From Thalassotalea hakodatensis (GTDB taxonomy: Bacteria; Pseudomonadota; Gammaproteobacteria; Enterobacterales; Alteromonadaceae), in contig NZ_AP027365.1 in assembly GCF_030295995.1 (NCBI RefSeq), positions 2,078,066 through 2,142,065 on the forward strand: DNA of 64,000 nucleotides. Reading direction: 5' to 3'. Positions 22,788 through 55,430 of this stretch are shown here, piece after piece. Made by a program: the position numbers and the translations under genes. The notes beneath the pieces were generated by a model, which was given only the letters and a program-made list of their open reading frames with translations, made no database searches and had not been told where the DNA came from. Position 1 is the first letter of the stretch; every line of letters begins with the position of its first letter.

Positions 22788-22864
<77 letters not shown>

Positions 22865-38403: not shown

Positions 38404-38494
38404 GGTGAGATGGCTGAGTGGTCGAAAGCACCGGTCTTGAAAACCGGCAAGGGTTTGTAGCCCTTCTAGGGTTCAAATCCCTATCTCACCGCCA
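38404..38494 (+). tRNA. tRNA-Ser (UGA), copy 1
   Basis: A 91-nt gene with encoded CCA, the long variable arm of serine tRNAs and anticodon UGA in CTTGAAA. It is identical in sequence to the second copy. Confidence 0.95.
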
Positions 38495-38499
38495 TATAT

Positions 38500-38529: not shown

Positions 38530-38551
38530 TTAAAAAAACATGTAAAAATGC

Positions 38552-38580
38552 TTTACAACAGACGAGCGAATTATTACTAT
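38552..38580 (+). promoter_or_regulatory. Promoter of second tRNA-Ser
   Basis: TTTACA (38552-38557) and TACTAT (38575-38580) are 17 bases apart and followed by TCGCACCGC. It is an independent copy of the promoter type upstream of the first tRNA-Ser. Confidence 0.7.
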
Positions 38581-38609
38581 TCGCACCGCTTTTATAAAAG
38601 CGAATATTT

Positions 38610-38700
38610 GGTGAGATGGCTGAGTGGTCGAAAGCACCGGTCTTGAAAACCGGCAAGGGTTTGTAGCCCTTCTAGGGTTCAAATCCCTATCTCACCGCCA
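38610..38700 (+). tRNA. tRNA-Ser (UGA), copy 2
   Basis: A 91-nt serine tRNA with encoded CCA. Unlike copy 1 it has no terminator directly behind it. The 3' end abuts the decayed serine recombinase. A matching trailer and terminator are found at 55152-55197, which supports insertion of a genomic island at this site. Confidence 0.95.
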
Positions 38701-40061
38701 TATTGATATGAGACTGGGCACTCCTTCGGGGGGCCCACCCTTGTTGTTTGCAAAGTTAGCTAATAACGGCAAATAACCACCTCTGACTTCAACCTTATCC
38801 TCATATACTTTAATATCTTTAACCAGAGCCAGAAGTAGGGCTTTAGTAGCTTCAATGTTATTTCCTAATAAAATTTTGTCACATGATTCAACGAATCGTC
38901 CTATGTGATCTTTCCCAAAACGCATTATAGGTAAAGCAGTTTTTTTATCTAATGTATTTATTGAGGCTTCGATTGAGCTTAATTTATCCTCATAAATTTT
39001 TAAATGTCTTTGTATTACACCTGATATAGATAATTTGTTGTCAGCTAAATTACTTATAACGGTAGAAATTTGATTATCGACTTGATTCCATTTACGTTGT
39101 AAATTTGCTTTTTCTATAGAGTTTCGTTTTCTTTCTTAGGCTAATAATGACTTTAGTTCTTCGTAATTACCTTCAATAAATTCATTAGTGAATATTTTTT
39201 TCTTGAGAGAATCAAGTACTGCTTTTTCTATTTTTTCCCTTGGTAAATTTGGAGTATTACATACGTGAATTGAGTGCTTAATTTTATCTCTACACTTGTA
39301 ATAATCATAACGGCCACCTTTACCAGTGTTTATTACCATATTACAGCCGCATTGTTCACACTTAATTAAGCTCGTTAGTAACTTTGGGGATTTCACTGCT
39401 TTGTTTGAAGGTTGCGATTTATTTGGTGCTCTACTTTTCAATATTTTTTGAATTTCTTCAAAATCTTCTTTTTTTACTATCGCTGGAACAGGGATTATAA
39501 CAACGCCAGTGTGTAAATCCTTTCTAAGTCTTTTTTCCCGTACTGTCTTTCTCCATAATACGTAGTATTAGTTAAAATTGTATGTACTAAATTGGGTGTC
39601 CATCGGCTACCGTTTTTCAGTAAGTTTTTGTTATTAAGATACGCTGCAATTTTTTTTACACCATATGAACAGCCTGATTCACCTTTGAGTGCTAGTGTAA
39701 AAATCTTTTCAACAATTTCAGCATTTGCTGGATGTAATGCATACACTTTACGCTTTTTACACCCATCTAGATTGGGAGCTTCAATTGTTTGATATCCAAA
39801 TGGCGGGATAGCACCAGTAGAGTATCCTTGTTCTGCTATACTATTTAACTTAATAGCCGATTTTTTGCTATTTTTTCTACTGAAGCTTTCAGCAAATAAG
39901 CCATTTATTCCTCTCATGATAAAAGCATCATCTACATCTTCAGGTATACAATCTAAGTATGAATATATTGCAACCCCATTTTTTTCTAGAATATCTTCAG
40001 CTTTATATCTAATAGCTTCTTTACGGCTAAATCTAGACGCATCATAAAATGTTCTGCGCAA
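38692..40061 (-). pseudogene. Large serine recombinase, truncated and broken
   Basis: The remaining part shows the end of the resolvase domain (DASRFSRKEA), the recombinase domain (YSTGAIPPFGYQTIE, KIAAYLNNKNLLKNGSRWTPNLVHTIL), a zinc ribbon (CEQCGCNM and CRDK with a later Cys) and a coiled-coil tail (IEKANLQRKWNQVDNQIS). Lesions: the N-terminus with the catalytic Ser is missing at the IS3 boundary, a frameshift lies between 39441 and 39495, and an in-frame TAA is at 39136. The last codons overlap the 3' end of the tRNA-Ser. It is a dead integrase of the island. Confidence 0.8.
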
Positions 40062-40066
40062 CTAAA

Positions 40067-40900
40067 TCAGGACACTTTTCTTAAGGAACTTTGTTCATAC
40101 TCTACTGGCGACAGATCACCATTAGCTGTATGAAGTCGTTCTAAGTTGTAATAACGCATATACGCCATTACATCATTTCTCATATGCCCACGAGTTGGCT
40201 GCGGTACTTTCAGCAACCAATCATGTTTTAAGCTGCCGAAGAACCTCTCAACCACTGCATTATCCTAACACGCACCTACATCGCCAATGCTCGCTCTAAT
40301 TCCGTAGTTGGCTAACAGTTTACGATAATGCTTACTGGTATATTGTGAGCCTCTATCGCTGTGAAATACTAAGCCTTCTGGTGGCTGACGTAAGTTATAC
40401 GCTTTCATCATTGCCTTGTTCACTAAATCAGTCGTCATACGTTTATCAATGTGCCAGCCTACAATACGACGAGAATATAAGTCCATGACAATGGCTAAGT
40501 ACATCCAGCCTTCGCCTGTTCTTAAGTAAGTCACATCACCAGCCCATACTTGATTAGGTGCAACAGGATTAAAGTTTTGGTTCAGTAAGTTATCAGCAAC
40601 CGCATCGCTATGTTTGCGTTTAGTTGTGACCTTGTAGGTAACTCGTTGGGTAACAACTAAACCAAGTGTTGCCATTAATTTCTGTACGTCATAATCACTG
40701 ACGTTAAAACCCTCACTGCGTAATTTCTTTCTAAGCTCTCGATAACCTAAGCTATTTCTGCTTTTCTCGAAGAAATACTTGGCCTTTCGATATAAGTTCA
40801 GTTGCTCAGCGGTAATAATTTTTGCTGGTCGTTTAAGCCAAGCGTAATAAGCACTTCGGCTTACTTTCATTACTTTGCAGAGCTTAACCACGGGAAACAC
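40067..40900 (-). pseudogene. IS3-family transposase OrfB with internal TAG
   Basis: The catalytic integrase-type protein. The HTH-like start (VVKLCKVMKVSRSAYYAWLKRP) and the DDE domain (WAGDVTYLRTGEGWMYLAIVMDLYSRRIVGW, then FHSDRGSQYTS) are intact. A TAG at 40265-40267 lies exactly where the family has an aromatic residue before DNAVVERFF, so the final catalytic Glu is cut off. The same frame continues for 62 residues to the normal end (HTANGDLSPVEYE). Confidence 0.88.
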
Positions 40901-40929
40901 CGAAGATAACTGCTTAATTGTTTTGAATG

Positions 40930-41217
40930 TTACTTGGTTTCCTTTAGCAGGAGGGCGTTGGCCTTTTTTAATATCTCTTTTTCCATCCTTAGCTCTTTAT
41001 TTTCCTTGCGTAGCTTTAGCAGCTCGGCTCGTTCATCCGCGTTTAAACTGGCACCTGATTGCTCAGATTCAAACTTGGCTTTCCAGTTATAAAGTAACTT
41101 ATCTGTAATACCTAAAGACGCAGCCGCCTTTGGTACGCTGTAACCTTGCTCGGTTACTAATGCGACAGCTTCTTGTTTAAATTCTGTCGTATAACTTCTG
41201 TTTGTTCGTTTTGTCAT
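40930..41217 (-). CDS. IS3-family transposase OrfA
   Basis: A 95-residue DNA-binding protein with a helix-turn-helix (EAVALVTEQGYSVPKAAASLGITDKLLYNWKAKF) and a C-terminal leucine zipper (LLKLRKENKELRMEKEILKKAN). It is intact, unlike the paired OrfB. Confidence 0.9.
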   Translation of the reverse strand: MTKRTNRSYTTEFKQEAVALVTEQGYSVPKAAASLGITDKLLYNWKAKFESEQSGASLNADERAELLKLRKENKELRMEKEILKKANALLLKETK

Positions 41218-41270
41218 TTAACACCTCAATAATTGGATTATATTCCATTATTAAAGTGTCCTGTTTAATT

Positions 41271-41557
41271 AAAGCAGATCACTAAGATTGCTTATTAGAA
41301 AAGTGAGCAATACCGTGGAAGGATAATGTGCAATAGGACACTAAATTGTAATGAACACAACGGTAAAAGATTGGTACATTATTAGTGTCATGGATGGTGA
41401 GTAATTAATCGTTGAGGTGCTGTATAGTATAGTGCAAAACGATCATTTGAAGTCAATGAATTATTATTTACAAGCATGTTTAATAGTTAAGTAAGTTTGA
41501 AAATCATACAAATGATGCTAACATTTTATCCTTTAAGTCAGATTGCGGATTAGATCG
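41271..41557. other. Region between IS3 and coiled-coil gene
   Basis: I see no gene here. It probably holds the promoter of the kinase cassette, but no convincing pair of promoter boxes stands out. The stretch is AT-rich. Confidence 0.3.
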
Positions 41558-43558
41558 ATGTCTAACTTATCGCCAGAGCAGTTCGTAGAAGAAGAAACTA
41601 GAAAACTCAATGCTGAAGGTTTGCAGTGGGATGACCCTATTGTCTATGACATAAAATTGAGAGCCATTGAAAGAAAAGCTGAGGAAATGCGTGAATCAAT
41701 AGAAGCTGAACAGCAGCGCATTGAAAACGATAAAACAGATCCTGCTCATGATCAAAACACACGGTTAGACGCATATGAAGATAAGTACGGAGCAAGCTAC
41801 CTTCCAAAAGACTACCAACCAACAGAAGCTGAGCAAAATAACACATGGTTAAGTGATGTTGTGCAGGCTAAGCAGCTAAGTACTTCAGAATTAGAGCAAA
41901 AAATTATCAATTCAAATTCAGGTCTTAATCCAGCAGAAAGTAAAGTTTATGCTGAGCGTATGGCTGAAACTAATGTTCACCACGGGCGCTATATCGAGAA
42001 AGTTGAATCAGGAGAAGCTGATGCCGCTGAAATGGGCGCAACTTTAATGTCTATCGAAAGGCTAGATGCATACAGCCAAGGTGAAGAAGCATATAGAGCT
42101 GTGTTACAAAAGCAGCAAGACCAAACCCCCAGTGATGCATATAGAAGCCACATGGCTGAACAAAGTGGTGATGTTGAAAATATTCGTCAAGAAATTTTAG
42201 CGAAAAACGTTCAGGTAGAACAAGCTTTAAATGAATCACAAGCTTCCTTAAATGGCGTAAGAGGAATGTATGATGAAAGCTCCGCTTATAGTGCTCAAAC
42301 GCGTTCAAGCGCCAATGATTCTGAAAGTGCATCTCAGCGTTCTCAAGAAAGTGCAAACAACATCAATAATATAAATAACGCTGCTTCAGAAAGTACTCAA
42401 TCGATAGAACAAAGTGAATCGAGAGCTAAAGTGGCGACTGACGCTTCTGAGCAAGCCTTAAGTACTAGCCAACAACATGAAAGTCATGCCGCCAACGCAT
42501 CTCAAGCTACTGATAGTTATTCTCAAAATGCTCAGTCATCAAGTAATCAAGCATCTGAACACAGCCAAAATGCGCAATCCGCAAGTGAACAAACTGTCGA
42601 GCAAAGTCAAAAAGCTCATCAATTTTCAGAAGAAGCACGAGCCTCTTCTATGGATGCAGAGTATTTTAATTCCGATGCTAAAACTAGCAGTCATGACGCG
42701 CAGTCATTTTCCACTGAAGCAAAGATTTACAGCGAATTTTCTGAAGGTCATTCTAGGCAAAGTGAAGATAGTTCAAACATAGCATCTGATTCAGCTCGAT
42801 CCGCTGATAGTTACTCAGGTTTTGCTCAAGAAGCAAAAGATAGTACGGTTAGCTTTTCACAAACAAGTAGAGATGCCAGCAGTGATTCGATAAATCATTC
42901 TTCATTATCAAAAGATGCAAGTCTGGATTCTGCCAAATCAGCAGAGGACACGGCTAATAAATCTGGTGATGCTGAAGGCCACAGAGCAAATGCAGAAGAA
43001 TCCGAGCATGTATCAAGATCGAATGCATCAGAAGCTGAACGCCATAGTGCACATGCCAATCAACAAGCTAATTTAACAGAAAACGAAAAAAACCTAGCAA
43101 CACAATCTGCAAATGAGGCCAGAACTGAAGCTCAGCAAACTCACGCCAATAAAGAAGTTAGTGAAGGTGCAATGAGTTCAGCGTTAGCTGCTTCACAAGC
43201 AAGTGAAATTGCAGCCGAAGAAACCAAGAATCTACAGTCTACAGCTACCGACTTAGTAAACGATATAAATGGACAACTGGTTGAGTCCACTCAGATTAAA
43301 GAAGAAGCCAATAGTACGCTTATTCAAATTCAAGGTGTTCTTCAACAAGCGTTAGCAGAATTAAAAGCAGCTCAAGCAGCTCGTCAAGAAGCTGAAACAA
43401 TGCGCAACCAGATTAAAGATGAATTAGCATCAGCTATGGATACAAGGCGAGATATAGAACAACAGTCAATGATGGCGAAAGATTTTACTCGTGATATTGA
43501 AAGACGCTCAAATGAGTCTTCCGATTTACTTTCTAAGCAAATAAATAACATTGCTTAA
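41558..43558 (+). CDS. Giant Ser/Ala-rich coiled-coil protein, first gene of cassette
   Basis: A 666-residue protein that I do not recognise. I prefer the ATG at 41558; a TTG at 41543 would add five residues. Residues 1-180 are charged and helical (PEQFVEEETRKLN, YAERMAETNVHHGRY). Residues about 200-560 are a long low-complexity helical repeat, with Ala or Ser every three to four positions (SQNAQSASEQTVEQSQKAH style). The last 110 residues are a denser coiled coil (LQQALAELKAAQAARQEAETM). There is no signal peptide or membrane segment. The abundance of Ser makes it an obvious possible kinase substrate, which is inference. It is followed by PP2C after 32 bases. Confidence 0.75.
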   Translation: MSNLSPEQFVEEETRKLNAEGLQWDDPIVYDIKLRAIERKAEEMRESIEAEQQRIENDKTDPAHDQNTRLDAYEDKYGASYLPKDYQPTEAEQNNTWLSDVVQAKQLSTSELEQKIINSNSGLNPAESKVYAERMAETNVHHGRYIEKVESGEADAAEMGATLMSIERLDAYSQGEEAYRAVLQKQQDQTPSDAYRSHMAEQSGDVENIRQEILAKNVQVEQALNESQASLNGVRGMYDESSAYSAQTRSSANDSESASQRSQESANNINNINNAASESTQSIEQSESRAKVATDASEQALSTSQQHESHAANASQATDSYSQNAQSSSNQASEHSQNAQSASEQTVEQSQKAHQFSEEARASSMDAEYFNSDAKTSSHDAQSFSTEAKIYSEFSEGHSRQSEDSSNIASDSARSADSYSGFAQEAKDSTVSFSQTSRDASSDSINHSSLSKDASLDSAKSAEDTANKSGDAEGHRANAEESEHVSRSNASEAERHSAHANQQANLTENEKNLATQSANEARTEAQQTHANKEVSEGAMSSALAASQASEIAAEETKNLQSTATDLVNDINGQLVESTQIKEEANSTLIQIQGVLQQALAELKAAQAARQEAETMRNQIKDELASAMDTRRDIEQQSMMAKDFTRDIERRSNESSDLLSKQINNIA

Positions 43559-43590
43559 CCATTGTAATAAAGATAGTGACATAAGCACTT

Positions 43591-44289
43591 ATGAAGGGAT
43601 TTGGACTTACACACAAGGGGCTGGTACGAACAAACAATCAAGATGCTTTCTATTACAACGAAGAAAACGTTGCAGCGGTTTTTGATGGTGTTGGTGGCGC
43701 CAAATTTGGAGAGGTAGCTAGTAAAATCGCGGTTGATGTTGTCAGCCAATCTGGACAAACAGAACCTTTAGTTGAACTGCTAACTAAAATTCAACAAACT
43801 ATTACAGAAACGCAGGCAGTTGAACCGAAGTATGAGGGTATGGCAACAACAGCCGTTATAGCGAGGTTTAAACGAGGGTATATAGAGTATTCATGGTCAG
43901 GTGACTCTAGGTTATATATGCTAAAAGGCTGTAAACTCGTGCAGTTAACGAAAGATCATACGATAGCGCAAGATTTCGTTGATCGAAAAGTACTGACAAA
44001 AGAAGAAGCTAAGACGAGCAATATTTCTTCACACTTAACATCTTGTTTAAGCGCTAATGATAAATTTTTTAAACCATGTCAAGGGAAGGTATCATTTAAA
44101 ACTAAAAAACGATTTTTGTTCTGTTCTGACGGTTTAACTGATGCTGTACAAGATGAAATAATATTGCAGCTTATAAAAAATAAATCGGTTACTAAAGCGG
44201 GTGAGCTATTGCTAAATGCGGCATTAGGAAACGGTGCACCAGATAACGTCACTATCATTATTTTCGATGTGCCCGGTAAATATTTATAG
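43591..44289 (+). CDS. PP2C-type Ser/Thr protein phosphatase
   Basis: A 232-residue metal-dependent phosphatase. Motifs in order: VRTNNQDAFYY, VFDGVGGAKFGE (metal Asp), MATTAVIA, SWSGDSRLYML, LTKDHTI, CSDGLTDAV and APDNVTIIIF. All key acidic residues are present, so it is likely active. It has no membrane part. It is the natural partner of the two kinases downstream, removing phosphates they add. The gap to the first kinase gene is 50 bases. Confidence 0.92.
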   Translation: MKGFGLTHKGLVRTNNQDAFYYNEENVAAVFDGVGGAKFGEVASKIAVDVVSQSGQTEPLVELLTKIQQTITETQAVEPKYEGMATTAVIARFKRGYIEYSWSGDSRLYMLKGCKLVQLTKDHTIAQDFVDRKVLTKEEAKTSNISSHLTSCLSANDKFFKPCQGKVSFKTKKRFLFCSDGLTDAVQDEIILQLIKNKSVTKAGELLLNAALGNGAPDNVTIIIFDVPGKYL

Positions 44290-44326
44290 ATAACAATCAA
44301 AGTTAGTAAAATTAAAAAAAAAGTAA

Positions 44327-45845
44327 CAGGACTTTTAACATGGACAAGAACGATTTTCTCAATGACCTGCCGCAGGCCAAACCGAGCTATACACCAGCTC
44401 CTGATGGTCAGGCACCGGGTAAAGGACTAGTCATTGAGTCAGGAACCTTGTTAGCAGAACGTTACGAAGTCAAAGAACGTATTGGTGCAGGTGGCATGGG
44501 AGCGGTATTTAAAGCCTTTGATAGGAACCGCGATAAAGATATTGCCATTAAAGTATTACTTCCTGATTTATTTTCCAATGAAGCAGCGAAAGAGCGTTTT
44601 ACCCAAGAAGCTCAAATCTCATCAGAATTATCTCACCCTAATATTGTTAATGTGTTTGATATTGTAGTCACAGGCGACTTAACATTTTTAACAATGGAGC
44701 TACTTGAAGGGCAAAACCTTCGAGAATACATGGATGCCCAACATCGAGGCATGGACCAAGAAGAAGCTATCGGTATTATCCAAGATGTAGTTAAAGCTTT
44801 GGAATATGCCCATCAGAGCATGGTGCATCGCGACATCAAACCAGAGAATATCTTCATTTGTGATGATGGCTCCATCAAACTGATGGACTTTGGTATCGCC
44901 CAAGCACAATCATTCAGTCGCGCATCTAAAGTAGGCATGTCATTGGGTACGGCCTATTACATGGCACCAGAGCAATTAAAAGCTAAAGGTAAGGTTGATG
45001 CAAGAGCTGACCAATATGCCTTAGCAGTGCTTTGTTATGAACTTCTTATTGGTGAGCTACCAACAGGCGCAGTTAAAAAACCTCACGAACTTAAAAAAGA
45101 TATTCCTAAAAAGCTGTCAAACGTCATTATGAAAGGTATGGAGCCAAGTGCGGATGAACGATTTACTGATGTAGCAAGCTTTGGTAAAGCACTAGCAGGT
45201 AAAGGCCGTGTGTCTGGTGGTTTGTCAACTAAATGGCTAATGGGCGCAGGAATTACTGTGATTACATTTTCAGCATTCTTTTTTGGCTCAGGTAATTCGA
45301 TAGACTTAGACTTTTCATCATCAAACACAGCGAATACCTCTAGCGGCTCAGATGAAACAAGCTTTATTGATTCAATTAAAGAAACTTTTTTTCCAGACCC
45401 TGCTATTGAGCAAGAAGCGATAGCTTTGAGTGCAGAGCTTGAAACATTAGGTAAAGCAATAGAACGATCAGAAAAACAACTTAAAGAAAAGAAACAAGAA
45501 ACCAAGGCTGAAGTAAACCGCATAGAGTCCTACCTTCGCACCGCGAAGGGGGAAGAAAAAGAATCATTAACGAGTTCGCTTAATCAAGCAAATGTCGAAG
45601 CAGAAGCGTCAAATAATGCTTATGAACTTTTCGCGGACCTGTCCACATCAAGTGACCAGTTTATTGAAGGGCAAAAACAAAAATCGACTGCTGATGCTTT
45701 GTTAAAAGCAGGGAAGTTTAAACAAGCGATTCAAGAATACAACTCAGCTAAAATTGCGTTTACAAAAATATCATCGGTATCTGATGATATTCACGACTAT
45801 GCGTTAAATAAAGCAAAGCTTAATGCCTTCAAGAATGACGTCATA
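44327..45845 (+). repeat. Duplicated kinase segment, copy A
   Basis: A 1,519-base block that repeats at 50417-51935 (offset 6,090). It starts 13 bases before the ATG and ends in codon 502. By eye the only difference is A versus G at 44421/50511. Beyond both ends similarity drops at once. Confidence 0.9.
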
Positions 45846-46982
45846 TCTTTTAATACTTCAAATAATAAACCAATTAAAAACATTAAGGACTTTATTGAAA
45901 ATGTGATGTCGGCAATGAGGAATGCTGATAGCGATGCTGCTAAGTTAAGGTTTGAACAAGCATCAAAAAAATTACTGGTTTTTGAGTTGTTGCAGCAAAC
46001 ATTCCCTGATATTAAAGAACAATATGTACTTAAAAATGTTGAATCGTTAGTTCAGATCTATAGCGAATGCGATTTAGCGAGTGAGTCTGGTGATGAAAGC
46101 TTTGATGAATGCAGTGTCGCAGATGATTTAGCTTTTGCCATAGCGAAAGAAAAAAACAGTATTTCAGCATACGGGCAATATGCACAGAGTAATGGTGCGC
46201 ATACTGATCAAGCAGATGAGTTGAGTGGAAAACGTATGGACTCTCTCAAAACTTATGATGCGTTGACTGTTTATAAAGAGTGGTTTCCTCAAGGAATGTT
46301 TATTAACTGGGTGGATGAGCAGTTTGAAAAACGAGATAAAGAAATTGAAAAAAGCAAACGAGCTGAACAGGCTCGAAAAGACAAAGAAAAAGCAGAACTA
46401 GAAGCTAAAAACGCTCAAACTAGTGCCAGTTTAAATCGTCTAGCCAATCAGCTTTCTGGAGTTTACAGGTTCGAAAAACGTATATACGGAAATAGACAAA
46501 ACGACGGAACAACTAGAGGGTATTATAGAGAAGCTGGGGAGATTAAACGTCGCAGTAATTGTGGATTCGAATTATACCGTTCTCGTGTATTTGTTATTTC
46601 TCCTAAGACTATTAACGTCGAAGGCAATAAAATAACATTTAAAATCATTTCTCAATATTTTAGCAAAAAATGGCTATACAAAGCTTGGGATTCTAGCTAT
46701 GCCGAATACCAGCAGTGCTATTTTGACGAAAGTTTGAATACAAAATATGCTTGGCGAAAAAAAGATTTTGAAGGTGAATTTACACTTACAAACGATTCAT
46801 TGAAATATGGATTTATAGATCTATCTTCAGTTAGGTTTATTATTAAAACCAATGACTATTCACATTCGAATTATCGATTTAGTTCATCCGATGATAGAGT
46901 GGGACAATCTTATAAATATTATGATTTAAACCTCAGAAACGGTGTTATTCATTATGATATTGAAAAACACCAAAAGCAGTAG
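44340..46982 (+). CDS. Membrane Ser/Thr protein kinase A (PASTA-less, STPK)
   Basis: An 880-residue Hanks-type kinase. The glycine loop is GAGGMG (49-54), the ATP Lys is Lys71, the catalytic HRD has Asp165 in HRDIKPEN, and the metal Asp183 is in DFG; all are intact. A transmembrane helix at about 299-317 (WLMGAGITVITFSAFFFG) is followed by a coiled coil (about 355-460) and a helical region (SAYGQYAQ, YKEWFPQG). The unrecognised beta-rich C-terminal domain starts near 700. With the kinase inside, the tail would face the periplasm and act as a sensor. Residues 1-502 equal those of kinase B except position 28 (Lys here, Glu there). Confidence 0.92.
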   Translation: MDKNDFLNDLPQAKPSYTPAPDGQAPGKGLVIESGTLLAERYEVKERIGAGGMGAVFKAFDRNRDKDIAIKVLLPDLFSNEAAKERFTQEAQISSELSHPNIVNVFDIVVTGDLTFLTMELLEGQNLREYMDAQHRGMDQEEAIGIIQDVVKALEYAHQSMVHRDIKPENIFICDDGSIKLMDFGIAQAQSFSRASKVGMSLGTAYYMAPEQLKAKGKVDARADQYALAVLCYELLIGELPTGAVKKPHELKKDIPKKLSNVIMKGMEPSADERFTDVASFGKALAGKGRVSGGLSTKWLMGAGITVITFSAFFFGSGNSIDLDFSSSNTANTSSGSDETSFIDSIKETFFPDPAIEQEAIALSAELETLGKAIERSEKQLKEKKQETKAEVNRIESYLRTAKGEEKESLTSSLNQANVEAEASNNAYELFADLSTSSDQFIEGQKQKSTADALLKAGKFKQAIQEYNSAKIAFTKISSVSDDIHDYALNKAKLNAFKNDVISFNTSNNKPIKNIKDFIENVMSAMRNADSDAAKLRFEQASKKLLVFELLQQTFPDIKEQYVLKNVESLVQIYSECDLASESGDESFDECSVADDLAFAIAKEKNSISAYGQYAQSNGAHTDQADELSGKRMDSLKTYDALTVYKEWFPQGMFINWVDEQFEKRDKEIEKSKRAEQARKDKEKAELEAKNAQTSASLNRLANQLSGVYRFEKRIYGNRQNDGTTRGYYREAGEIKRRSNCGFELYRSRVFVISPKTINVEGNKITFKIISQYFSKKWLYKAWDSSYAEYQQCYFDESLNTKYAWRKKDFEGEFTLTNDSLKYGFIDLSSVRFIIKTNDYSHSNYRFSSSDDRVGQSYKYYDLNLRNGVIHYDIEKHQKQ

Positions 46983-47048
46983 TAAAAAGCAAATAATCAT
47001 TTGGTTATTGTGAGTCTAGTACTAATATCAAATAGAGAGATAGTTTAA

Positions 47049-48869
47049 TTGAGTCAATTACAAGGTGTTGCTTTAGCATTTAGACAAGAAACCTTCGAAT
47101 ACGAAAAAGGACAAGCTCATCAACCTATATCTGATGAGGTTTTGTCACTTATTTCTCAAATTGAAGAACAGAATACTTCAGTTATCTGTATTTCTAGCGA
47201 CTTTGAATTGGAAAAAGGTTTTTATAGTACGTTATTGAGTGATGAGGTTTTTCAGGTTTTAGCTTCGATAGTAAGCAAGAATGTTACAAAAATTGACTTT
47301 AGCGATAGCTCGATATCATTAACTAAAGATCATGATGAACCATCTGCCTTTAATAGTTTAGAAGCACTAAAAGAATACTTTATCAACACACAACCGCACG
47401 ATGATATTGTTAGTTACCGATTGAACTTGCCATCTAACTTCAGTGCTAAGTTTGATTCAATAACGTTTTGCAACCTTGATAAAGAAAACCTATTTTCTGA
47501 TGCATCATTACTTCGCAACCTAAAGAACAATAACTCTGTTTTCATTTCAAAGGGTTTACTTAATAAACAATCAGCGCTTAAAGAGTTATTTTGTGATATT
47601 GATTGTGCTTTTATTTTATCTTCAGGCGCTAATGATAAAGGCGAAGCTAGCTCTAATTTAGCGTTTTTGCCTTATGTTGACGTAATCAAACTAGATAAGT
47701 TTGAACCATCTCAAATTAAAGCAATTCAACAACCAATAAACGTAGCTAACAATATTAGATTAACTAAAAAATTATCTTCGATTATAGAGGCTGTTAGGGG
47801 CGAATCTTCCGCATCTACTGAAAAGTTAACCAAACAAAAAAAGCGTGAAGAGCAAAAGTTAACTGCAATTTCTGGTGGTGGGTTTTCTACCAACTCAGAT
47901 TTGCAAAGTAAATTAAATACATTGGTAAACAATGAGTTTAGTCAAGCACAAACAAAGCTTGAACAAGAGCTTAAATTACAAAGTAGACAAAAAAATATTA
48001 TTGATAGTTTCAATTCCACCGTTGTCGATAAATTTACCTTATTTGATTTGGCGAGAGAGAAAAAACACAATGGCTTTAAACTAACTATTCAAGAGTCGCT
48101 AATTGAAAATGTACAAGGTTTGTTGCATAGAGCCTTTGAAAAGCAATTAAAGCAAAGCTTAAAACTTTATCAAAGCTTGGGTGAATCAATACTTAAATCA
48201 GTTAAAGAAGAGCTTGCAAAAACTGATGTAAATGCCTCAAACCTTGAGCTTAGCTACCCAAAAGAAAGTGAGTTTTGGCACACTGCTCAATACATTTTTG
48301 AATTTGAATCTGATTATTCTGGCGAGCTAAAGAAAAGAGGCTTTTTAAAACGTTTATCTGAAGGTAGACGAGCAGTTTTTAGTTTATTAATGGTAGTGTC
48401 GCTTGGCGGTACTATGTTTGGTTTATCCAACTTACGATCAAATAAATTGATTGGTTTGGCATTGTTTTTAACTTTTATCTTTTCAGTTGTATTTACTTAC
48501 CGTTCATGGCGAGCTGAAGATAAAGAAACGGAAGAAAAAGAGATTGATCGCGCTAAAGAATCGATTAAACGAAGTGCGAGCCAATGTATCTCAGAAGCTG
48601 AAAGAGATTGTGCACAGTGGATTAAAACTGAATTTGATAAGCTTAAAAAACACATTCTGCAATCAATTATTGATGCCACTAAAAATAAATCTGAGCAAGA
48701 AAGTAATCAGCAAAAAGCAGTGCGAGACAAAGCAGAAGCATTGCTGCGAAACATCAATAAAAAACTAGATGAATCGGTAACTCTCAGCCGCAAGCTTGAA
48801 TCAATTTACCAAGAGGTTAAAAAAGAAGAGGCTGATACTCGGCGTCAGCTAATGCCTTTAAAGAAATAA
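47049..48869 (+). CDS. Membrane coiled-coil protein, possible degenerate dynamin-like
   Basis: A 606-residue protein with TTG start after AGAGAGATAG. I do not recognise it firmly. Residues 1-230 look like an alpha/beta domain (SVICISSDFELEKGF, YRLNLPSNFSAKFDSITFCNL, CAFILSSGANDKGEA). The order recalls the GTPase of bacterial dynamins, but no P-loop GxxxxGKS is present. Residues 240-430 are helical. Two hydrophobic segments at about 445-490 (RAVFSLLMVVSLGGTMFG and LIGLALFLTFIFSVVF) form a membrane hairpin, then a coiled coil follows to the end. Next to the Hsp70 gene (3-base gap), it may be a membrane partner of that chaperone. Confidence 0.6.
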   Translation: MSQLQGVALAFRQETFEYEKGQAHQPISDEVLSLISQIEEQNTSVICISSDFELEKGFYSTLLSDEVFQVLASIVSKNVTKIDFSDSSISLTKDHDEPSAFNSLEALKEYFINTQPHDDIVSYRLNLPSNFSAKFDSITFCNLDKENLFSDASLLRNLKNNNSVFISKGLLNKQSALKELFCDIDCAFILSSGANDKGEASSNLAFLPYVDVIKLDKFEPSQIKAIQQPINVANNIRLTKKLSSIIEAVRGESSASTEKLTKQKKREEQKLTAISGGGFSTNSDLQSKLNTLVNNEFSQAQTKLEQELKLQSRQKNIIDSFNSTVVDKFTLFDLAREKKHNGFKLTIQESLIENVQGLLHRAFEKQLKQSLKLYQSLGESILKSVKEELAKTDVNASNLELSYPKESEFWHTAQYIFEFESDYSGELKKRGFLKRLSEGRRAVFSLLMVVSLGGTMFGLSNLRSNKLIGLALFLTFIFSVVFTYRSWRAEDKETEEKEIDRAKESIKRSASQCISEAERDCAQWIKTEFDKLKKHILQSIIDATKNKSEQESNQQKAVRDKAEALLRNINKKLDESVTLSRKLESIYQEVKKEEADTRRQLMPLKK

Positions 48870-48872
48870 TTT

Positions 48873-50378
48873 ATGAATATAGGAATTGATTTAGGCACCA
48901 CATTTACCTTATGCGCCTATATGAATGAAAAAGGTATTCCTGCACTAGTGCCAGATAGATATGACGCTAATGCCTTTAGAACGCCATCAGTCATGTTGAT
49001 TGATGACAGCGGAGTTCATGTTGGAGATACTGCTAATGAGTTATGTGAGGAAGACACAACCTCAAACCTATGGCGAAATGCCAAACTCGATTTAGCCAGT
49101 GATAAATTGTTTCAAGCTATAGATGGTAAGGCGTGGAAGCCTGAATCAGTATCGGCAGTAGTCATTTCGAAGGTACTAGCAGATTGCCAAATGTACTTAA
49201 CGGAAAGTATTAAACATGTGGTTATTACCGTACCAGCCAACTTCAATGCCGAACAACGAAAGGCAACCAAGTTAGCTGCTCAAATGGCAGGGCTACTTAA
49301 AGTGTCTTTGGTAGAAGAGCCAGTGGCTGCGGCAACTTTCTATGGCTGCGTAAACAATATTCCCAAATCTACTGTGTTAACTTATGACTTTGGTGGTGGC
49401 ACCTTTGACGCTTCTATATTGGAAGTCAACGCGGGTAACTCAAAAGTTATTGCTTCGGATGGTAGCAATAGTTTAGGTGGTAACGATATTGATGAATTGA
49501 TCCAAAACTTGGTATTTTCTGAGTTCAAAGTAGAATTTGGTTTAGACATAAGCCAAGATCAAGAATCACAAGTGAAAGTGCAAAAGCTGGCTGAAAAAAT
49601 AAAAGTAGGCTTTTCACGGCCAACCATTAGACAAGTAAAAAAATCAATTGTTTTGCAAGGTAGAGCCTTCGAGTTTCTGCTCACAAGAAGTCAATTTGAA
49701 GAACTATTACAACCAATTATCGATAAAACACTGGTAGTTTGTGAGTCGTGTTTAGCGGCTGCCAAAATGAACTGGAGCAGTATCGATGAGGTTCTGTTTG
49801 TTGGTGGTAGCAGTATGCTGGCACTAGCTAAGGAAAAGATACTCGCTGTATCGGGTAAAGACGCTAGCACAATAATTCAAAACCAGCCTCATCAAGCGGT
49901 AGCATTTGGAGCGGCTATTATCGCTGAGCAAATTGGTGGTGGTGTGGCTGATACAAACTTTCAATATGGCGCTACAAGTAAAGCTATTGGTATAAGTGTC
50001 ATCAATAAAACAACTGGTGAAGCTGATATGGAAGAGCTGATAGCGCAAAATACACCATTGCCAGCAAAAGTTGAACGCACTTTTTTTACTCAGCGAAATG
50101 ATCAACAGTATCTGGTTTTTGAAATACTCCAAAAAGGTAATAATGAAATTCAGCCGAGTAGCTTGGGTTACTTTAAATTTGGGCCATTTTTAAACCCTAA
50201 GAAAAATTTGCCTATTAAATTAACCTTGAACTGTGATACCGAAGGTATAGTTCATGCTACCGCTACTGATGAGGGTAGCGGACAGGAGTTGCAAAAAATC
50301 CTATCGAAAGAAATGGAAAATGCTGAATGGATTGAAGAGCAAAAGCAGCTTGTAGAATATGCTAAACATTATGTTTAG
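48873..50378 (+). CDS. Hsp70-family protein without lid domain
   Basis: A 501-residue Hsp70 homologue, shorter than DnaK (about 640). The ATPase half is complete: GIDLGTTFTLCAY (phosphate 1), TVPANFNAEQRKATKLAAQMAGL, EEPVAAATFYG, DFGGGTFDASIL (phosphate 2) and LFVGGSSMLALAKEKI. The beta substrate-binding half is present but short (LIAQNTPLPAKVERTFFT through LNCDTEGIVHATATDEGSG). The helical lid and C-terminal tail are missing. It is likely a specialised chaperone or signalling ATPase, not the housekeeping DnaK. It is co-translated with the gene 3 bases upstream. Confidence 0.9.
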   Translation: MNIGIDLGTTFTLCAYMNEKGIPALVPDRYDANAFRTPSVMLIDDSGVHVGDTANELCEEDTTSNLWRNAKLDLASDKLFQAIDGKAWKPESVSAVVISKVLADCQMYLTESIKHVVITVPANFNAEQRKATKLAAQMAGLLKVSLVEEPVAAATFYGCVNNIPKSTVLTYDFGGGTFDASILEVNAGNSKVIASDGSNSLGGNDIDELIQNLVFSEFKVEFGLDISQDQESQVKVQKLAEKIKVGFSRPTIRQVKKSIVLQGRAFEFLLTRSQFEELLQPIIDKTLVVCESCLAAAKMNWSSIDEVLFVGGSSMLALAKEKILAVSGKDASTIIQNQPHQAVAFGAAIIAEQIGGGVADTNFQYGATSKAIGISVINKTTGEADMEELIAQNTPLPAKVERTFFTQRNDQQYLVFEILQKGNNEIQPSSLGYFKFGPFLNPKKNLPIKLTLNCDTEGIVHATATDEGSGQELQKILSKEMENAEWIEEQKQLVEYAKHYV

Positions 50379-50416
50379 TTTTTAATTAATATTATTTAAT
50401 ACCAGTACAGTAATAG

Positions 50417-51935
50417 CAGGACTTTTAACATGGACAAGAACGATTTTCTCAATGACCTGCCGCAGGCCAAACCGAGCTATACACCAGCTCCTGATGGTCA
50501 GGCACCGGGTGAAGGACTAGTCATTGAGTCAGGAACCTTGTTAGCAGAACGTTACGAAGTCAAAGAACGTATTGGTGCAGGTGGCATGGGAGCGGTATTT
50601 AAAGCCTTTGATAGGAACCGCGATAAAGATATTGCCATTAAAGTATTACTTCCTGATTTATTTTCCAATGAAGCAGCGAAAGAGCGTTTTACCCAAGAAG
50701 CTCAAATCTCATCAGAATTATCTCACCCTAATATTGTTAATGTGTTTGATATTGTAGTCACAGGCGACTTAACATTTTTAACAATGGAGCTACTTGAAGG
50801 GCAAAACCTTCGAGAATACATGGATGCCCAACATCGAGGCATGGACCAAGAAGAAGCTATCGGTATTATCCAAGATGTAGTTAAAGCTTTGGAATATGCC
50901 CATCAGAGCATGGTGCATCGCGACATCAAACCAGAGAATATCTTCATTTGTGATGATGGCTCCATCAAACTGATGGACTTTGGTATCGCCCAAGCACAAT
51001 CATTCAGTCGCGCATCTAAAGTAGGCATGTCATTGGGTACGGCCTATTACATGGCACCAGAGCAATTAAAAGCTAAAGGTAAGGTTGATGCAAGAGCTGA
51101 CCAATATGCCTTAGCAGTGCTTTGTTATGAACTTCTTATTGGTGAGCTACCAACAGGCGCAGTTAAAAAACCTCACGAACTTAAAAAAGATATTCCTAAA
51201 AAGCTGTCAAACGTCATTATGAAAGGTATGGAGCCAAGTGCGGATGAACGATTTACTGATGTAGCAAGCTTTGGTAAAGCACTAGCAGGTAAAGGCCGTG
51301 TGTCTGGTGGTTTGTCAACTAAATGGCTAATGGGCGCAGGAATTACTGTGATTACATTTTCAGCATTCTTTTTTGGCTCAGGTAATTCGATAGACTTAGA
51401 CTTTTCATCATCAAACACAGCGAATACCTCTAGCGGCTCAGATGAAACAAGCTTTATTGATTCAATTAAAGAAACTTTTTTTCCAGACCCTGCTATTGAG
51501 CAAGAAGCGATAGCTTTGAGTGCAGAGCTTGAAACATTAGGTAAAGCAATAGAACGATCAGAAAAACAACTTAAAGAAAAGAAACAAGAAACCAAGGCTG
51601 AAGTAAACCGCATAGAGTCCTACCTTCGCACCGCGAAGGGGGAAGAAAAAGAATCATTAACGAGTTCGCTTAATCAAGCAAATGTCGAAGCAGAAGCGTC
51701 AAATAATGCTTATGAACTTTTCGCGGACCTGTCCACATCAAGTGACCAGTTTATTGAAGGGCAAAAACAAAAATCGACTGCTGATGCTTTGTTAAAAGCA
51801 GGGAAGTTTAAACAAGCGATTCAAGAATACAACTCAGCTAAAATTGCGTTTACAAAAATATCATCGGTATCTGATGATATTCACGACTATGCGTTAAATA
51901 AAGCAAAGCTTAATGCCTTCAAGAATGACGTCATA
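50417..51935 (+). repeat. Duplicated kinase segment, copy B
   Basis: Second copy of the block at 44327-45845, 1,519 bases. It includes the shared CAGGACTTTTAAC leader before the ATG, the whole kinase domain, the membrane helix and the coiled coil. Confidence 0.9.
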
Positions 51936-52988
51936 ACTTTTAATGACAATAATAAAAAAGTTATTAGTGATTTATCTAATTTTATCGAAGATGTAATGGA
52001 AGCATTTCGATTATCCGACAGACAAGCCAGTAAGTTAAATTTTAAACGCGCATTGGATTTTTTAAGTGAATTTAAAGCCTTTAGCGACAACTGGGTTGAT
52101 ATAAAAAAAGGCTATTTAGATAAAAATATAGAAAATTTGATCGATATTTATAAGAACTGTGAGGTTTACGCTAAAAGAAATCAATATGATTACTGTCATA
52201 TACCTGATGGTTTGGCCCTTGCTATCGCTAAAGAGAAAAACACTATTTCAGCTTACGGTCAATATGCAAAAGGAGGTGGTAGCTATACTGACATAGCTGA
52301 TGATATGGCTGCTGATAGAGTAAAAGAATTATATTCTGATGATGCCTTTCAAGTATATTTAAAATGGTTTCCTCAAGGGAATTATAGCGAGTCAGTGAGT
52401 AAGGTAGCATCTGATAGGCGAAGCAAACTTGATGAAACGGTTTCTAAATTGAAGAATTGGCAGCATTCATATAGTGCATGGTTAACCTTCAAAAGAGAGG
52501 CTCAATATTATGATAGAGGGTTGCACAATTACTACAGAGATGGAGATTATGTATACATAAATATTAGGTATGATTTTGGCTTGGATGTAAAATACAAAGA
52601 TTATAATAAAGAAGAAAATTATGCCGTTTATGAATTGCTGCTAACCTCAGAAGGACAAGTTAAACACTCTGAGAGCTACCGTGATAAGTATTTCCACGAA
52701 ATGCTATTGCGATTCGAGTTAATTTTAGAGTTTGATGATAATTATGCAGTTTCATTTAATGATGGAAAGGTTCTAAACTGCAAAAATGGTGGAGATGATT
52801 CCAAGTATTATAATAGATATGTTGATTACTTGATGAAGTGCCCTGCTTTGGGAGCGGATATAGAAATAGTACGTTGGCTACCAATTAAAAGTCTTGGTTT
52901 TTCTCACTCGGCAGGCTTTAACTTGATTGGTTATAATTCTACATTTTTGAAAAATACTACAATTCCTCTGAGTATTAAAGGTAAGTAA
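50430..52988 (+). CDS. Membrane Ser/Thr protein kinase B with different tail
   Basis: An 852-residue paralogue of kinase A. Residues 1-502 (kinase domain, membrane helix, coiled coil) are the same as in kinase A except Glu28. After residue 502 only distant similarity remains (AIAKEKNTISAYGQYAK, YLKWFPQGNY), and from about 670 the tails are unrelated; this one has KLKNWQHSYSAWLTFKRE and a beta-rich end. So both kinases share one cytoplasmic output but present different periplasmic tails. The gene follows the Hsp70 gene after 51 bases and is 8 bases before the EEP gene. Confidence 0.92.
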   Translation: MDKNDFLNDLPQAKPSYTPAPDGQAPGEGLVIESGTLLAERYEVKERIGAGGMGAVFKAFDRNRDKDIAIKVLLPDLFSNEAAKERFTQEAQISSELSHPNIVNVFDIVVTGDLTFLTMELLEGQNLREYMDAQHRGMDQEEAIGIIQDVVKALEYAHQSMVHRDIKPENIFICDDGSIKLMDFGIAQAQSFSRASKVGMSLGTAYYMAPEQLKAKGKVDARADQYALAVLCYELLIGELPTGAVKKPHELKKDIPKKLSNVIMKGMEPSADERFTDVASFGKALAGKGRVSGGLSTKWLMGAGITVITFSAFFFGSGNSIDLDFSSSNTANTSSGSDETSFIDSIKETFFPDPAIEQEAIALSAELETLGKAIERSEKQLKEKKQETKAEVNRIESYLRTAKGEEKESLTSSLNQANVEAEASNNAYELFADLSTSSDQFIEGQKQKSTADALLKAGKFKQAIQEYNSAKIAFTKISSVSDDIHDYALNKAKLNAFKNDVITFNDNNKKVISDLSNFIEDVMEAFRLSDRQASKLNFKRALDFLSEFKAFSDNWVDIKKGYLDKNIENLIDIYKNCEVYAKRNQYDYCHIPDGLALAIAKEKNTISAYGQYAKGGGSYTDIADDMAADRVKELYSDDAFQVYLKWFPQGNYSESVSKVASDRRSKLDETVSKLKNWQHSYSAWLTFKREAQYYDRGLHNYYRDGDYVYINIRYDFGLDVKYKDYNKEENYAVYELLLTSEGQVKHSESYRDKYFHEMLLRFELILEFDDNYAVSFNDGKVLNCKNGGDDSKYYNRYVDYLMKCPALGADIEIVRWLPIKSLGFSHSAGFNLIGYNSTFLKNTTIPLSIKGK

Positions 52989-52996
52989 CACTAGAT

Positions 52997-53761
52997 ATGG
53001 TGAAGAATTTTCTTAAAATTGCTTTTTCAGTAATACTTTTGTTTGTTGGTTTTGCAAATGGGGGAGAACCTGAACCAATAAAAATATTTAGTTATAATGT
53101 TTATTTTGATGATGAAACAGGTGCTGAACGCTATCCAACAATATTAAATTATATTGCAAAACAAAGTGATGATGTTGTTTTGCTTCAGGAATGCACGCCT
53201 ACATTTTTAAGTTTACTTTCGAGAGAGCCTCGATTTAATAAGTATTTTATCAAACATGGAAATAAACAAGGTGGTTACACCAATATTATTTTAACTTCAT
53301 TGCCAATTATTGCCGCTGGTGATATTAAACTGAAAACGAATATGGGGCGTTCAGCGCCATATATAACGTTTAAAGACTATGATCTTTCTATAGTCAACGT
53401 ACATTTGGAAAGCGGCATTTTGGACTGAGGTGTTCGCAAGGAGCAGCTAAAACAAATAAAAGCGTTTGATGGGCTTGCTTCAAATGTCATTATTGCAGGA
53501 GACTTTAATTTTGCCGATGGCGATGATGAAGAACTTTTACTGAGTGACTTTATTGATTTAGGTAAGCAAGCCAATGAAGTAACCTACGATGTTGAAAATA
53601 ATGGACTAGCCAAAGAAACCAAATTTCCGTTCGAATCCAGTAAACGTTTGGATCGCATATTTTTAAAGTGCCCAAGTTGTCGAACCACTGGCTTTCAAAC
53701 GCATAAAACTAATCACTCCGATCACTGGCCCATCTCAAGCGAAATACAGCTTAATCAATAA
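52997..53761 (+). pseudogene. Secreted EEP-fold hydrolase with in-frame TGA
   Basis: An endonuclease/exonuclease/phosphatase-family protein of 254 residues if read through. A signal peptide ends near FANG. Motifs: FSYNVYF, VVLLQECTP (metal Glu), VHLESG, then TGA at codon 144 (53426-53428), then in the same frame GDFNFAD, RLDRIF and HSDHWPI. All catalytic motifs survive on both sides, so the TGA is recent or is read through. A single change from CGA or TGG would restore it. Substrates of the family range from DNA and RNA to inositol phosphates. It ends the cassette and overlaps the next, opposite gene by 11 bases. Confidence 0.85.
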
Positions 53762-54290
53762 CTTTTATTTTAAAAAGGTTGTCCGCATAATATTTTCTTG
53801 TCTCGCTAGCCGATAAATCGCCAAATGTTACGTCATATTTATAATTAAAAGTGATTTCGTATTTTTTGCCAATTAGATGCTCCATATTTTTTCTATAATC
53901 TGGCCCATGTCCCGTGAACCATCCGTCAAATATATCTTCAAGGTACTTATCTATATTTTGATTGATTTTGCATTCATCAATAAATCGTACTTTTTTTAAA
54001 TTTCTCTCTGAAATATATTCAAAATGTTTCCCAAGTTCAGACCTGTCAACCAACTCTATGGCTGTTGGCCTATAATTTTCATTAAGTTGAAATTCATAAG
54101 TGACCCATCCATCAAATTCACTGCTACTATTATAGTGCTCAACGTGGTGTCCTAATCTCCAACGAGTTGGAATAATTCTAAGCTTTATTTCATCTGCTTT
54201 ACAATGTGTGCTTGTTGGGCTGCTTGATGCAAAACTAGATAAAGATAAAAGCAGAGAAAAAACAACGCCGCTAAAAACACTTTTATTCAT
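53751..54290 (-). CDS. Exported protein with TonB-C-like domain
   Basis: A 179-residue protein with a signal peptide (VFSLLLSLSSFASS). The central part (GWVTYEFQLNENYRPTAIELVDRS with following helix NLKKVRF) has the strand-strand-helix pattern of the TonB C-terminal domain, though there is no TonB membrane anchor. The function is unknown. It is convergent with the EEP gene, overlapping it by 11 bases, and lies inside the island. Confidence 0.5.
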   Translation of the reverse strand: MNKSVFSGVVFSLLLSLSSFASSSPTSTHCKADEIKLRIIPTRWRLGHHVEHYNSSSEFDGWVTYEFQLNENYRPTAIELVDRSELGKHFEYISERNLKKVRFIDECKINQNIDKYLEDIFDGWFTGHGPDYRKNMEHLIGKKYEITFNYKYDVTFGDLSASETRKYYADNLFKIKVID

Positions 54291-54390
54291 TGGTTAATCC
54301 TTTATATGATTCGAATTCGTAGTGAGTAGTCGAAAGAACATATAACATATATTAGGCTAAAAATTTTAATTATAGTAAGTTGAAAACAAT

Positions 54391-54843
54391 ATGTATGGAA
54401 GATTAGCTTTGGTACTGTGTGCAGTTACTGTCGCCTTTGATGCTCAGTCAAACTCATTGCATAAGTCAAAACTAGCGTTTGATAAATTGATCAAAGTATG
54501 TGATCCATATGAGTTTGTTCAAAATGAAAGCAATTTTGAAAACACATTAGCGAAAGAAATTAGTAAGTTAGATACATATCAACAAGAACAATTGCTATAT
54601 AAAGAAAGTGAATCTAGAGTTCTTCTTAGCTACTTTGGTATTCCCTATTTAGATCATAAGGTCAAAGGAGCTAACCATTTAAAAACTTGCTGGGCAATGA
54701 AGTATGAAATTACTTTAAGAGCTAATGCTAAGGCCAAATTAGATGCAATAGACAAATGGTATTCAAGCACTCAAGGAGTTCATAACACAGAATTAGAGTT
54801 GTTAAAAAAGTACTATAGTTGTCACAAGGACTCTTTAAAGTAA
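54391..54843 (+). CDS. Small exported protein, unrecognised
   Basis: A 150-residue protein with a weak signal peptide (LALVLCAVTVAFDAQS). It is mostly helical and has Cys residues near positions 37, 109 and 144 that could form disulfides in the periplasm. I know no family. It is the last intact gene before the right end of the island. Confidence 0.5.
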   Translation: MYGRLALVLCAVTVAFDAQSNSLHKSKLAFDKLIKVCDPYEFVQNESNFENTLAKEISKLDTYQQEQLLYKESESRVLLSYFGIPYLDHKVKGANHLKTCWAMKYEITLRANAKAKLDAIDKWYSSTQGVHNTELELLKKYYSCHKDSLK

Positions 54844-55149: not shown

Positions 55150-55161
55150 CCGCCATATATA
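55150..55161. other. Putative right attachment site
   Basis: CCGCCATATATA matches the 12 bases at the end of the first tRNA-Ser and its trailer. The same core without the last ATA is at the left junction (38696-38704). It marks the likely right end of the island. Confidence 0.5.
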
Positions 55162-55162
55162 G

Positions 55163-55197
55163 AAACCCGTTGAGCGAAAGCTTAGCGGGTTTTTTGC
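55163..55197 (+). terminator. Strong terminator, probably displaced from tRNA-Ser 2
   Basis: AAACCCGTTGAGC and GCTTAGCGGGTTT pair over 13 bp (with wobbles) around a GAAA tetraloop, followed by T residues. No gene directly upstream needs it. Its place two bases after CGCCATATATA matches the tRNA-Ser trailer layout. Confidence 0.8.
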
Positions 55198-55430
55198 TTT
55201 CTAGCGTTTAACACGTTATCACAATGCTTTAATGATTAATGCGGTCACCTTATAAAAAGGTCTGTTTTTTATCAAGTAAAGTCGCTTTTTAATAGATAAC
55301 CGATAATCATTAATTTTGACTTTGTTAACCATTAGGCTTTCTCATGTTATATTGCGATTAAAGCCAAGGAAGCTTATATCAATGATGATTAAAAAATAAC
55401 CTCAATTTTTCGCAACAATAGGTATTCATA

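Follow-up and report, generated by a model that had tools for sequence, protein, structure and literature searches.

We analyzed a 64,000-nucleotide (nt) stretch of the Thalassotalea hakodatensis genome (contig NZ_AP027365.1, positions 2,078,066 to 2,142,065), hereafter the window, whose positions serve as coordinates throughout, and focused on a gene cassette at 41558-53761 encoding two Ser/Thr kinases, a PP2C-type phosphatase, a lidless Hsp70, a long coiled-coil protein, and a 606-residue membrane protein. Six intact collinear genes, all on the plus strand, span 41558-52988, with intergenic gaps of 32, 50, 66, 3, and 51 nt in the order coil, PP2C, kinase A, 606-residue protein, Hsp70, and kinase B, followed by 8 nt to the frame of an EEP hydrolase. 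The following features were identified in the cassette (lengths in amino acids, aa; TM, transmembrane).

41558..43558, plus strand: Ser/Ala heptad coiled-coil protein, 666 aa, an orphan in the searches made
43591..44289, plus strand: PP2C-type Ser/Thr phosphatase, 232 aa, Stp1-like (Pfam, NCBIfam, motifs)
44340..46982, plus strand: kinase A, 880 aa, with a Hanks kinase domain at about 40-285, a probable TM segment at 299-317, a coil, and an A-specific C-terminal tail
47049..48869, plus strand: 606-aa protein with an N-domain, long predicted helices, a hydrophobic hairpin at 442-484, and a helical C-terminal end, an orphan in the searches made
48873..50378, plus strand: lidless Hsp70, 501 aa, with ATPase and substrate-binding beta domains and an unconserved DnaK linker motif
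50430..52988, plus strand: kinase B, 852 aa, with the 5' half as in kinase A and a different C-terminal tail
52997..53428, plus strand: EEP hydrolase gene, 5' piece, up to an in-frame TGA
53429..53761, plus strand: EEP hydrolase gene, 3' piece in the same frame, matching the second part of the family below the cut-off

The original prediction, made from the DNA letters and open reading frames, had described a run of collinear genes with gaps of 3-66 nt, and this was borne out for the six intact genes. The 666-residue coil, the PP2C, the two kinases, the membrane-associated coiled 606-aa protein, and the lidless Hsp70 were all confirmed by frames, Pfam, motifs, and alignment. The seventh gene had been taken for an intact secreted EEP hydrolase, which was not confirmed, as the frame contains a TGA at 53426-53428 and reaches the end at 53761 only through this stop. 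The 5' piece covers positions 2-112 of the Exo_endo_phos profile (27.5 bits, above the cut-off) and the 3' piece positions 134-225 (19.4 bits, below it); either the gene is interrupted in this genome, or a base of the TGA is a sequencing error. Pfam curated cut-offs were passed by the PP2C, Pkinase, and HSP70 domains, and no Pfam match above cut-off was obtained for the coil, the kinase tails, or the 606-aa protein.

Twin kinases and the other cassette proteins

The original prediction had counted kinases A and B as 2 separate kinases. Both are indeed present, but that account was incomplete, having overlooked that their first 502 codons are nearly identical. Out of the first 1,506 coding nt, 1,505 are the same in the 2 genes, as are the 13 nt upstream of the start, and the sole difference in the 502 codons is K28 in kinase A versus E28 in kinase B. 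Past codon 502, identity drops abruptly to about half. Residues 502-660 are still identical at 69 of 157 aa (44%), far above shuffles, and the 2 genes are therefore old duplicates; beyond residue 660, the alignment score does not exceed that of shuffles. The sharp edge at codon 502 indicates that the half encoding kinase domain, TM segment, and coil was recently copied between the genes while the tails stayed separate. Judged from the nucleotide alignment, the kinase-TM half is recently homogenized by gene conversion or an equivalent exchange, and we regard the twin kinases with converted halves, as read from the DNA, as a solid new fact. The simplest reading of one output domain joined to two different tails would be one output with two inputs.

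Both proteins carry the motifs GAGGMG, AIK, HRDIKPEN, DFG, and APE of Hanks-type Ser/Thr kinases. The probable TM segment (299-317) is preceded by Lys/Arg residues and followed by an Asp/Ser-rich stretch, which would place the kinase domain inside and the tail outside. The best NCBIfam models for the kinase domain (35-285) are of PknB/Stk1 type, at 257 bits versus an equivalog cut-off of 450. No family match, PASTA included, was identified for the kinase tails, and the tail of kinase A had no match among PDB sequences at E up to 0.1.

The phosphatase harbors the motifs NQD, DGVGG, GDSR, SDG, and GAPDN, including the metal-binding Asp motifs of PP2C, and its best NCBIfam model is of Stp1 type (165 bits versus an equivalog cut-off of 230). 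We read the motifs of the PP2C, the kinases, and the Hsp70 by the roles that they usually have in these families. Reversible phosphorylation, which had been deduced from the presence of a kinase with a PP2C, is well supported by the sequence of the kinases, the PP2C, and their motifs. The Hsp70 (Pfam score 283 bits) has the motifs GIDLGTT, DFGGGTFD, VGGSS, and EEPVAAA, and its ATPase domain with phosphate motifs and its beta domain place it in the Hsp70 family. Its alignment with DnaK in PDB takes in the ATPase and substrate-binding beta domains, up to about residue 486; the protein ends near the start of the lid, and its linker region reads NFQYGATSK where DnaK aligns a sequence of LLDVTPLS type. 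A conserved hydrophobic interdomain linker matters in DnaK. The protein is not a canonical DnaK, with no lid, an unconserved linker, and 263 bits versus a cut-off of 822; identity is about 28-35% to DnaK-type proteins and 30% to the DnaK-type protein of its own genome.

The coil contains 15% Ser and 14% Ala. Within residues 226-620, a 3.5-residue (heptad) period of the Ala, Ala plus Ser, acidic/amide, and hydrophobic classes exceeded the best of 100 shuffles, which were scanned on a coarser period grid than the real sequence; the period of Lys/Arg barely exceeded shuffles, and that of Ser alone did not. In the 606-aa protein, the hydrophobic hairpin (442-484) has basic residues on both outer sides, and the helices flanking it, as well as the secondary structure, come from an AlphaFold model of very low confidence. 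Its comparison with PDB sequences gave one chance-level row.

The island at tRNA-Ser(UGA)

The cassette lies on an island of about 16.6 kb in this genome, which extends from past a pair of tRNA-Ser genes to about 55289 and includes or adjoins the following features.

38404..38494, plus strand: tRNA-Ser(UGA), first copy of an identical pair, marking the island side (ARAGORN, 94-nt direct repeat)
38610..38700, plus strand: tRNA-Ser(UGA), second copy, with the island starting just downstream (ARAGORN, repeat, matches to congeners end here)
39136..40061, minus strand: large serine recombinase remnant in two frames, 39136-39441 and 39495-40061 (Pfam Recombinase and zinc-ribbon domains)
40062..41281, minus strand: IS3-type element with transposase frame 40265-40900 (rve, HTH_21) and a putative left edge
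53751-54290, minus strand, and 54391-54843, plus strand: two further island genes, no family match above cut-off
55161..55194, plus strand: terminator-like hairpin (15 pairs), closely followed by the right edge of the island at about 55289

The serine recombinase remnant has no resolvase-domain match in Pfam, its N-terminal part being missing, a loss apparently due to the adjoining IS3-type element. At the same site, the congener G275 has a single tRNA-Ser and 221 nt between the flanks; in G274, 585 nt separate the end of the tRNA-Ser from the right flank; and in G276, 338 nt lie between matches ending at window position 38705 and resuming at 56965 (search rows only). No DNA match to 41558-53761 was listed in the other four genomes of the genus (five in total), among the best 40 of up to 154 candidates scored per genome, a missed near-identical match being possible though unlikely. 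Near the hairpin, congeners have similar short sequences (short matches at 55150-55245).

In the conspecific genome G777, an intact serine recombinase of 535 aa, a relative of the remnant, comes after the same tRNA-Ser pair, and DNA identity to window positions 38392-40048, tRNAs included, is 77%. Further on, the G777 cargo comprises NYN/LOTUS, HEPN, putative AbiC, and GmrSD_N genes, for which PADLOC gave weak AbiP and AbiC matches and NsnA at 213 bits. This different cargo at the same tRNA-Ser indicates that the site swaps cargo, which is defense-like in one sister strain. As the G777 assembly is a draft in about 90 contigs, an unsequenced gap could still hide the cassette there. The island setting named in the original prediction thus stands, with an empty site in three congeners and other cargo, including defense-like genes, in the conspecific.

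The gene set of the G777 island was also noted in its own right. In locus L075 (G777:C72:48000-59263), positions 1301-11021 hold the serine recombinase, a second resolvase frame, NYN-LOTUS, HEPN, one protein without assignment, the putative AbiC, and a protein of 770 aa that matches GmrSD_N in two stretches, and this one-run set may itself be an undescribed defense operon. At the right end of the island, the two small genes at 53751-54843 are divergent, and their starts resemble signal peptides by eye. Elsewhere in the window, we identified four tandem tRNA-Met genes on the minus strand (22166-22864) and an IS3-type element at 59848-61039 with four more near-identical copies in this genome, adjoined by a short repeat (about 61080-61251) that has dozens of copies across this genome and the conspecific.

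Relatives and known systems

We searched for relatives of the cassette proteins in genome sets that overlap, in plasmids and phages, and in two contig collections (genome_contigs and viral_contigs), scanned with exact 8-residue patterns that see close relatives only. The 606-aa protein was identified in its own genome only among 274 genomes of the class and 147 related genomes, with none in plasmids and phages by tblastn and none in genome_contigs and viral_contigs by exact peptides; at E up to 10, its N-part gave a single chance-level match in plasmids (E 7, a BrxC gene). The N-part of the coil was likewise confined to its own genome among 247 genomes of the order and had no match in plasmids (tblastn) or viral_contigs. 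The kinase tail was found in its own two genes only in 303 genomes and nowhere in plasmids (tblastn), and the 147 related genomes yielded the same two genes and two weak partial matches (E about 3e-4, in G310 and G344). Kinase A had no match in viral_contigs by exact short peptides. The kinase domain alone matched 922 plasmid records, all at less than 60% identity, and these matches are therefore uninformative.

With the Hsp70 at E<=1e-60, a limit that would miss diverged copies, only the protein itself was recovered in the 147 genomes and nothing in genome_contigs or viral_contigs, and 398 genomes of the phylum added four others at 34-35% identity, whose open frames of 639-659 aa make them DnaK-sized. 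Further, 249 plasmid and 40 phage records matched the Hsp70, all below 60% identity. The neighborhoods of four such plasmid or phage records were inspected: neither a kinase nor a PP2C is listed in the three that carry annotation, and the fourth is unannotated. A PF00012 survey of the 147 relatives returned DnaK-type proteins among the matches listed and was of no use for other Hsp70s. PP2C relatives occurred in 76 of the 147 genomes. Among 29 short PP2C loci (up to 3.7 kb), 5 had a kinase match and 0 an Hsp70 match. A kinase match was present in half of the longer PP2C regions (10 of 20 regions of 19.5 kb; 3 adjoining the PP2C) and an Hsp70 match at E<=1e-4 in 0 of the 20, these regions representing the upper part of the list with 8 higher or equal rows passed over (short contigs and second hits among them). 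Co-occurrence of homologues in other genomes, and with it a recurrent system, has so far failed to appear: across the genomes, plasmids, phages, and contigs searched, the set turned up only once.

The closest comparison in arrangement is the yeg locus of E. coli K-12, in which yegD (Hsp70, 450 aa), yegI (kinase), (yegJ), pphC (PP2C), and yegL lie together, so that, as in the cassette, a short Hsp70-family protein, a membrane Ser/Thr kinase, and a PP2C stand side by side. According to the available passages of PMC13232886, PphC acts as the phosphatase of YegI, a Ser/Thr kinase of the membrane, and no condition promoting expression of yegI and pphC had been defined as of 2026. In contrast to the yeg locus, the cassette has two kinases instead of one and no counterpart of the vWA-type YegL; its Hsp70 scores only 45 bits against YegD, and its kinase and PP2C have no blastp match to YegI and PphC beyond chance. 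Orthology of the cassette proteins to YegD, YegI, PphC, or YegL was ruled out by blastp. Elsewhere, the genome has its own YegD relative of 463 aa (G000:C1:1717459-1717857, L005), which shares 48% identity with the E. coli protein.

Similar components recur in the GAP1-N2 GTPase-centered and DO-GTPase conflict systems, where, in the accessible portions of Kaur et al. 2020 (PMC7159879), Hsp70 belongs to one theme and kinase plus PP2C to another, with a catalytically active kinase that sometimes has a TM segment. The cassette shares an Hsp70 with some of those systems and an active-type kinase and PP2C with others, but there the two are, in these portions of the source, separate themes, and the cassette lacks a Pfam match to GTPase, tubulin, GrpE, or vWA and thus a GTPase core. 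PknB/Stk1-type kinases with Stp1-type PP2Cs provide the best NCBIfam models of the kinase domain and the PP2C, whereas the cassette proteins score below the equivalog cut-offs and the kinase tails have no PASTA match. Plasmid runs in Vibrio rumoiensis, Sinorhizobium medicae, and Pseudanabaena galeata are alike in having an Hsp70-family gene among hypothetical genes and differ in listing an AAA ATPase, a methyltransferase, or GrpE, with no kinase or PP2C in gene tables that are incomplete.

Two of these plasmid runs have features of their own. On the S. medicae plasmid (L106, 3661-16621), Hsp70-family genes, perhaps one split gene, flank a transposase, along with hypothetical proteins, a DNA methyltransferase, and, on the opposite strand, a UvrD helicase, which gives the run a defense-like look. 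On the V. rumoiensis plasmid (L097, 225-14326), the gene for an 832-aa Hsp70-family protein shares one run with those for a sigma-54 regulator, an AAA ATPase, and hypothetical proteins, and a tyrosine integrase gene lies close by.

No description of the full set was found in the full-text literature, a coverage without most subscription journals and all preprints. The claim that no described system has the full set therefore holds for the literature searched, but loci with kinase, PP2C, and Hsp70 had already been described. In that literature, kinase, PP2C, and Hsp70 form a known kind of neighborhood, and the twin kinases with three orphan parts make a set without a match in print.

Proposed function and alternatives

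Our best explanation, held tentatively and at somewhat less than even confidence, is that the cassette is a horizontally acquired phospho-switch with two inputs and one output, acting on a membrane/coil assembly with the lidless Hsp70 in defense or stress. By their families, the kinases would phosphorylate, the PP2C would reverse this, and the Hsp70 would bind exposed segments. The kinase tails, lying in the periplasm, may sense two different cues, and both kinases would phosphorylate the same partners, since gene conversion would keep their catalytic halves identical. In the resting state, the PP2C would hold the switch off. The target of phosphorylation may be the Ser-rich coil, as the original prediction had also proposed, and/or the 606-aa membrane protein, and the Hsp70 would load or reset their assembly without the usual lid, in keeping with the remodelling that the original prediction had suggested for the Hsp70 with the membrane protein. 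As suggested by the site alone, the likeliest role would be a defense or envelope-stress response through triggered membrane or filament assembly.

Several results weigh against this explanation. No J-protein or GrpE match was identified by Pfam among the proteins of the run. A promoter-like site (41497-41524) precedes the coil gene, yet such sites are rarer in the region (30) than in shuffles (mean 42.7), and a single transcription unit is thus unsupported. The TM stretch of the kinases missed the mean-hydropathy cut-off of 1.6 in the scan and was hence unlisted there, and the AlphaFold models of the 606-aa protein, whole and N-part, are unusable (mean pLDDT 40 and 37). PADLOC gave no match to defense systems beyond the shared kinase and PP2C domains: the matches of the two kinases are domain-level among the best 25 of 30 and the best 25 of 33 rows, with the exception of MkoA on kinase B, which extends from 37 to 516; that of the PP2C is domain-level; that of the Hsp70 is at chance level; and the 606-aa protein has a weak LeoBC match only (E 0.0012, helical residues 237-331). 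The defense genes of G777 are context, outside the cassette, and the broken last gene suggests that the island is possibly decaying. Conserved linkage, by which joint action of genes is usually proven, is missing, as the searches made revealed the set only in this genome.

A phage-defense system proper, in which the kinases are triggered when infection is detected and the cell is then arrested or killed by a membrane protein/coil effector that PP2C and Hsp70 hold in restraint, is somewhat unlikely. It would agree with the AbiC-like, HEPN, NYN, and GmrSD-like genes at the same tRNA-Ser site in G777, with the match of the kinase domains, as kinase domains only, to kinases of PADLOC defense models, and with the conflict systems of PMC7159879, where, in the available text, Hsp70 and kinase plus PP2C belong to separate themes. 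However, none of the intact genes has a known effector domain by Pfam, no full PADLOC system model matches, and the kinase tails look external, away from where a phage replication cue would arise. These external-looking tails, together with the PP2C, the Hsp70, and the membrane protein, would fit an envelope or protein-stress module unrelated to phage, whose two surface-facing kinases would monitor the periplasm and set Hsp70/coil function; the yegD/yegI/pphC precedent, with YegI dephosphorylated by PphC in the portion available of PMC13232886, is in line with it. Orphan parts on a recent island would be unusual for a housekeeping stress module, however, and the genome already has a YegD relative elsewhere (48% identity), leaving this reading rather doubtful. 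Independent cargo, namely a kinase pair with PP2C, an Hsp70 with the 606-aa gene, and a coil, may also have come to lie side by side by chance, as the lack of conserved linkage in the searches made, the IS3-type element, the integrase remnant, and the broken last gene would allow. We consider this unlikely in view of six same-strand genes with gaps of 3-66 nt and of kinase B, which lies beyond the Hsp70 yet has the 5' half of kinase A, tying both ends of the run together.

A narrower alternative concerns the 606-aa protein, which might be a degenerate dynamin-like membrane remodeller, with a GTPase fold without nucleotide motifs, helices, and a TM-hairpin paddle, worked by the Hsp70. The order of elements in the very low-confidence model (alpha/beta-like N-part, helices, hydrophobic hairpin, helices), a by-eye likeness to the G1 and G3 motifs of bacterial dynamins and to the strand motif that follows, and the weak LeoBC match, confined to the helical part, are consistent with it. 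However, the N-part has no Pfam match even at E up to 10 (HMMER filters on). Against a profile of five dynamins of the CrfC clade only, far from TM-bearing dynamins (six genes fetched, the short Acinetobacter one left out), the protein was absent from the best 22 of 208 sequences, 20 of which were its own shuffles, and its hhalign probability was 0.2%, equal to that of two other cassette proteins used as controls. We judge this reading very improbable. A dynamin nature as such was not supported, the protein having no GxxxxGK[ST] motif, no Dynamin_N match, and a profile score below its own shuffles for the one dynamin clade.

Returning to the two-input phospho-switch, an unlikely but more far-reaching version would be a new immune or stress type, in which gene conversion holds kinase output constant while the sensor ends of the sister kinases diverge, feeding a phospho-controlled filament/membrane assembly set and reset by a lidless Hsp70. 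Overall, the cassette is a real, odd gene run on a real island with a good defense context and a putative function. Even as a mere pile-up of cargo, it would mark a swap site beside tRNA-Ser, which in a sister strain holds defense-like genes. Should the six genes work as one system, they would offer a compact model of two sensors wired to one phosphorylation output, in which recombination keeps the output constant while the sensors drift, and would connect Ser/Thr phospho-signalling with Hsp70 chaperones on a mobile island, a connection at which yegD/yegI/pphC already hint.

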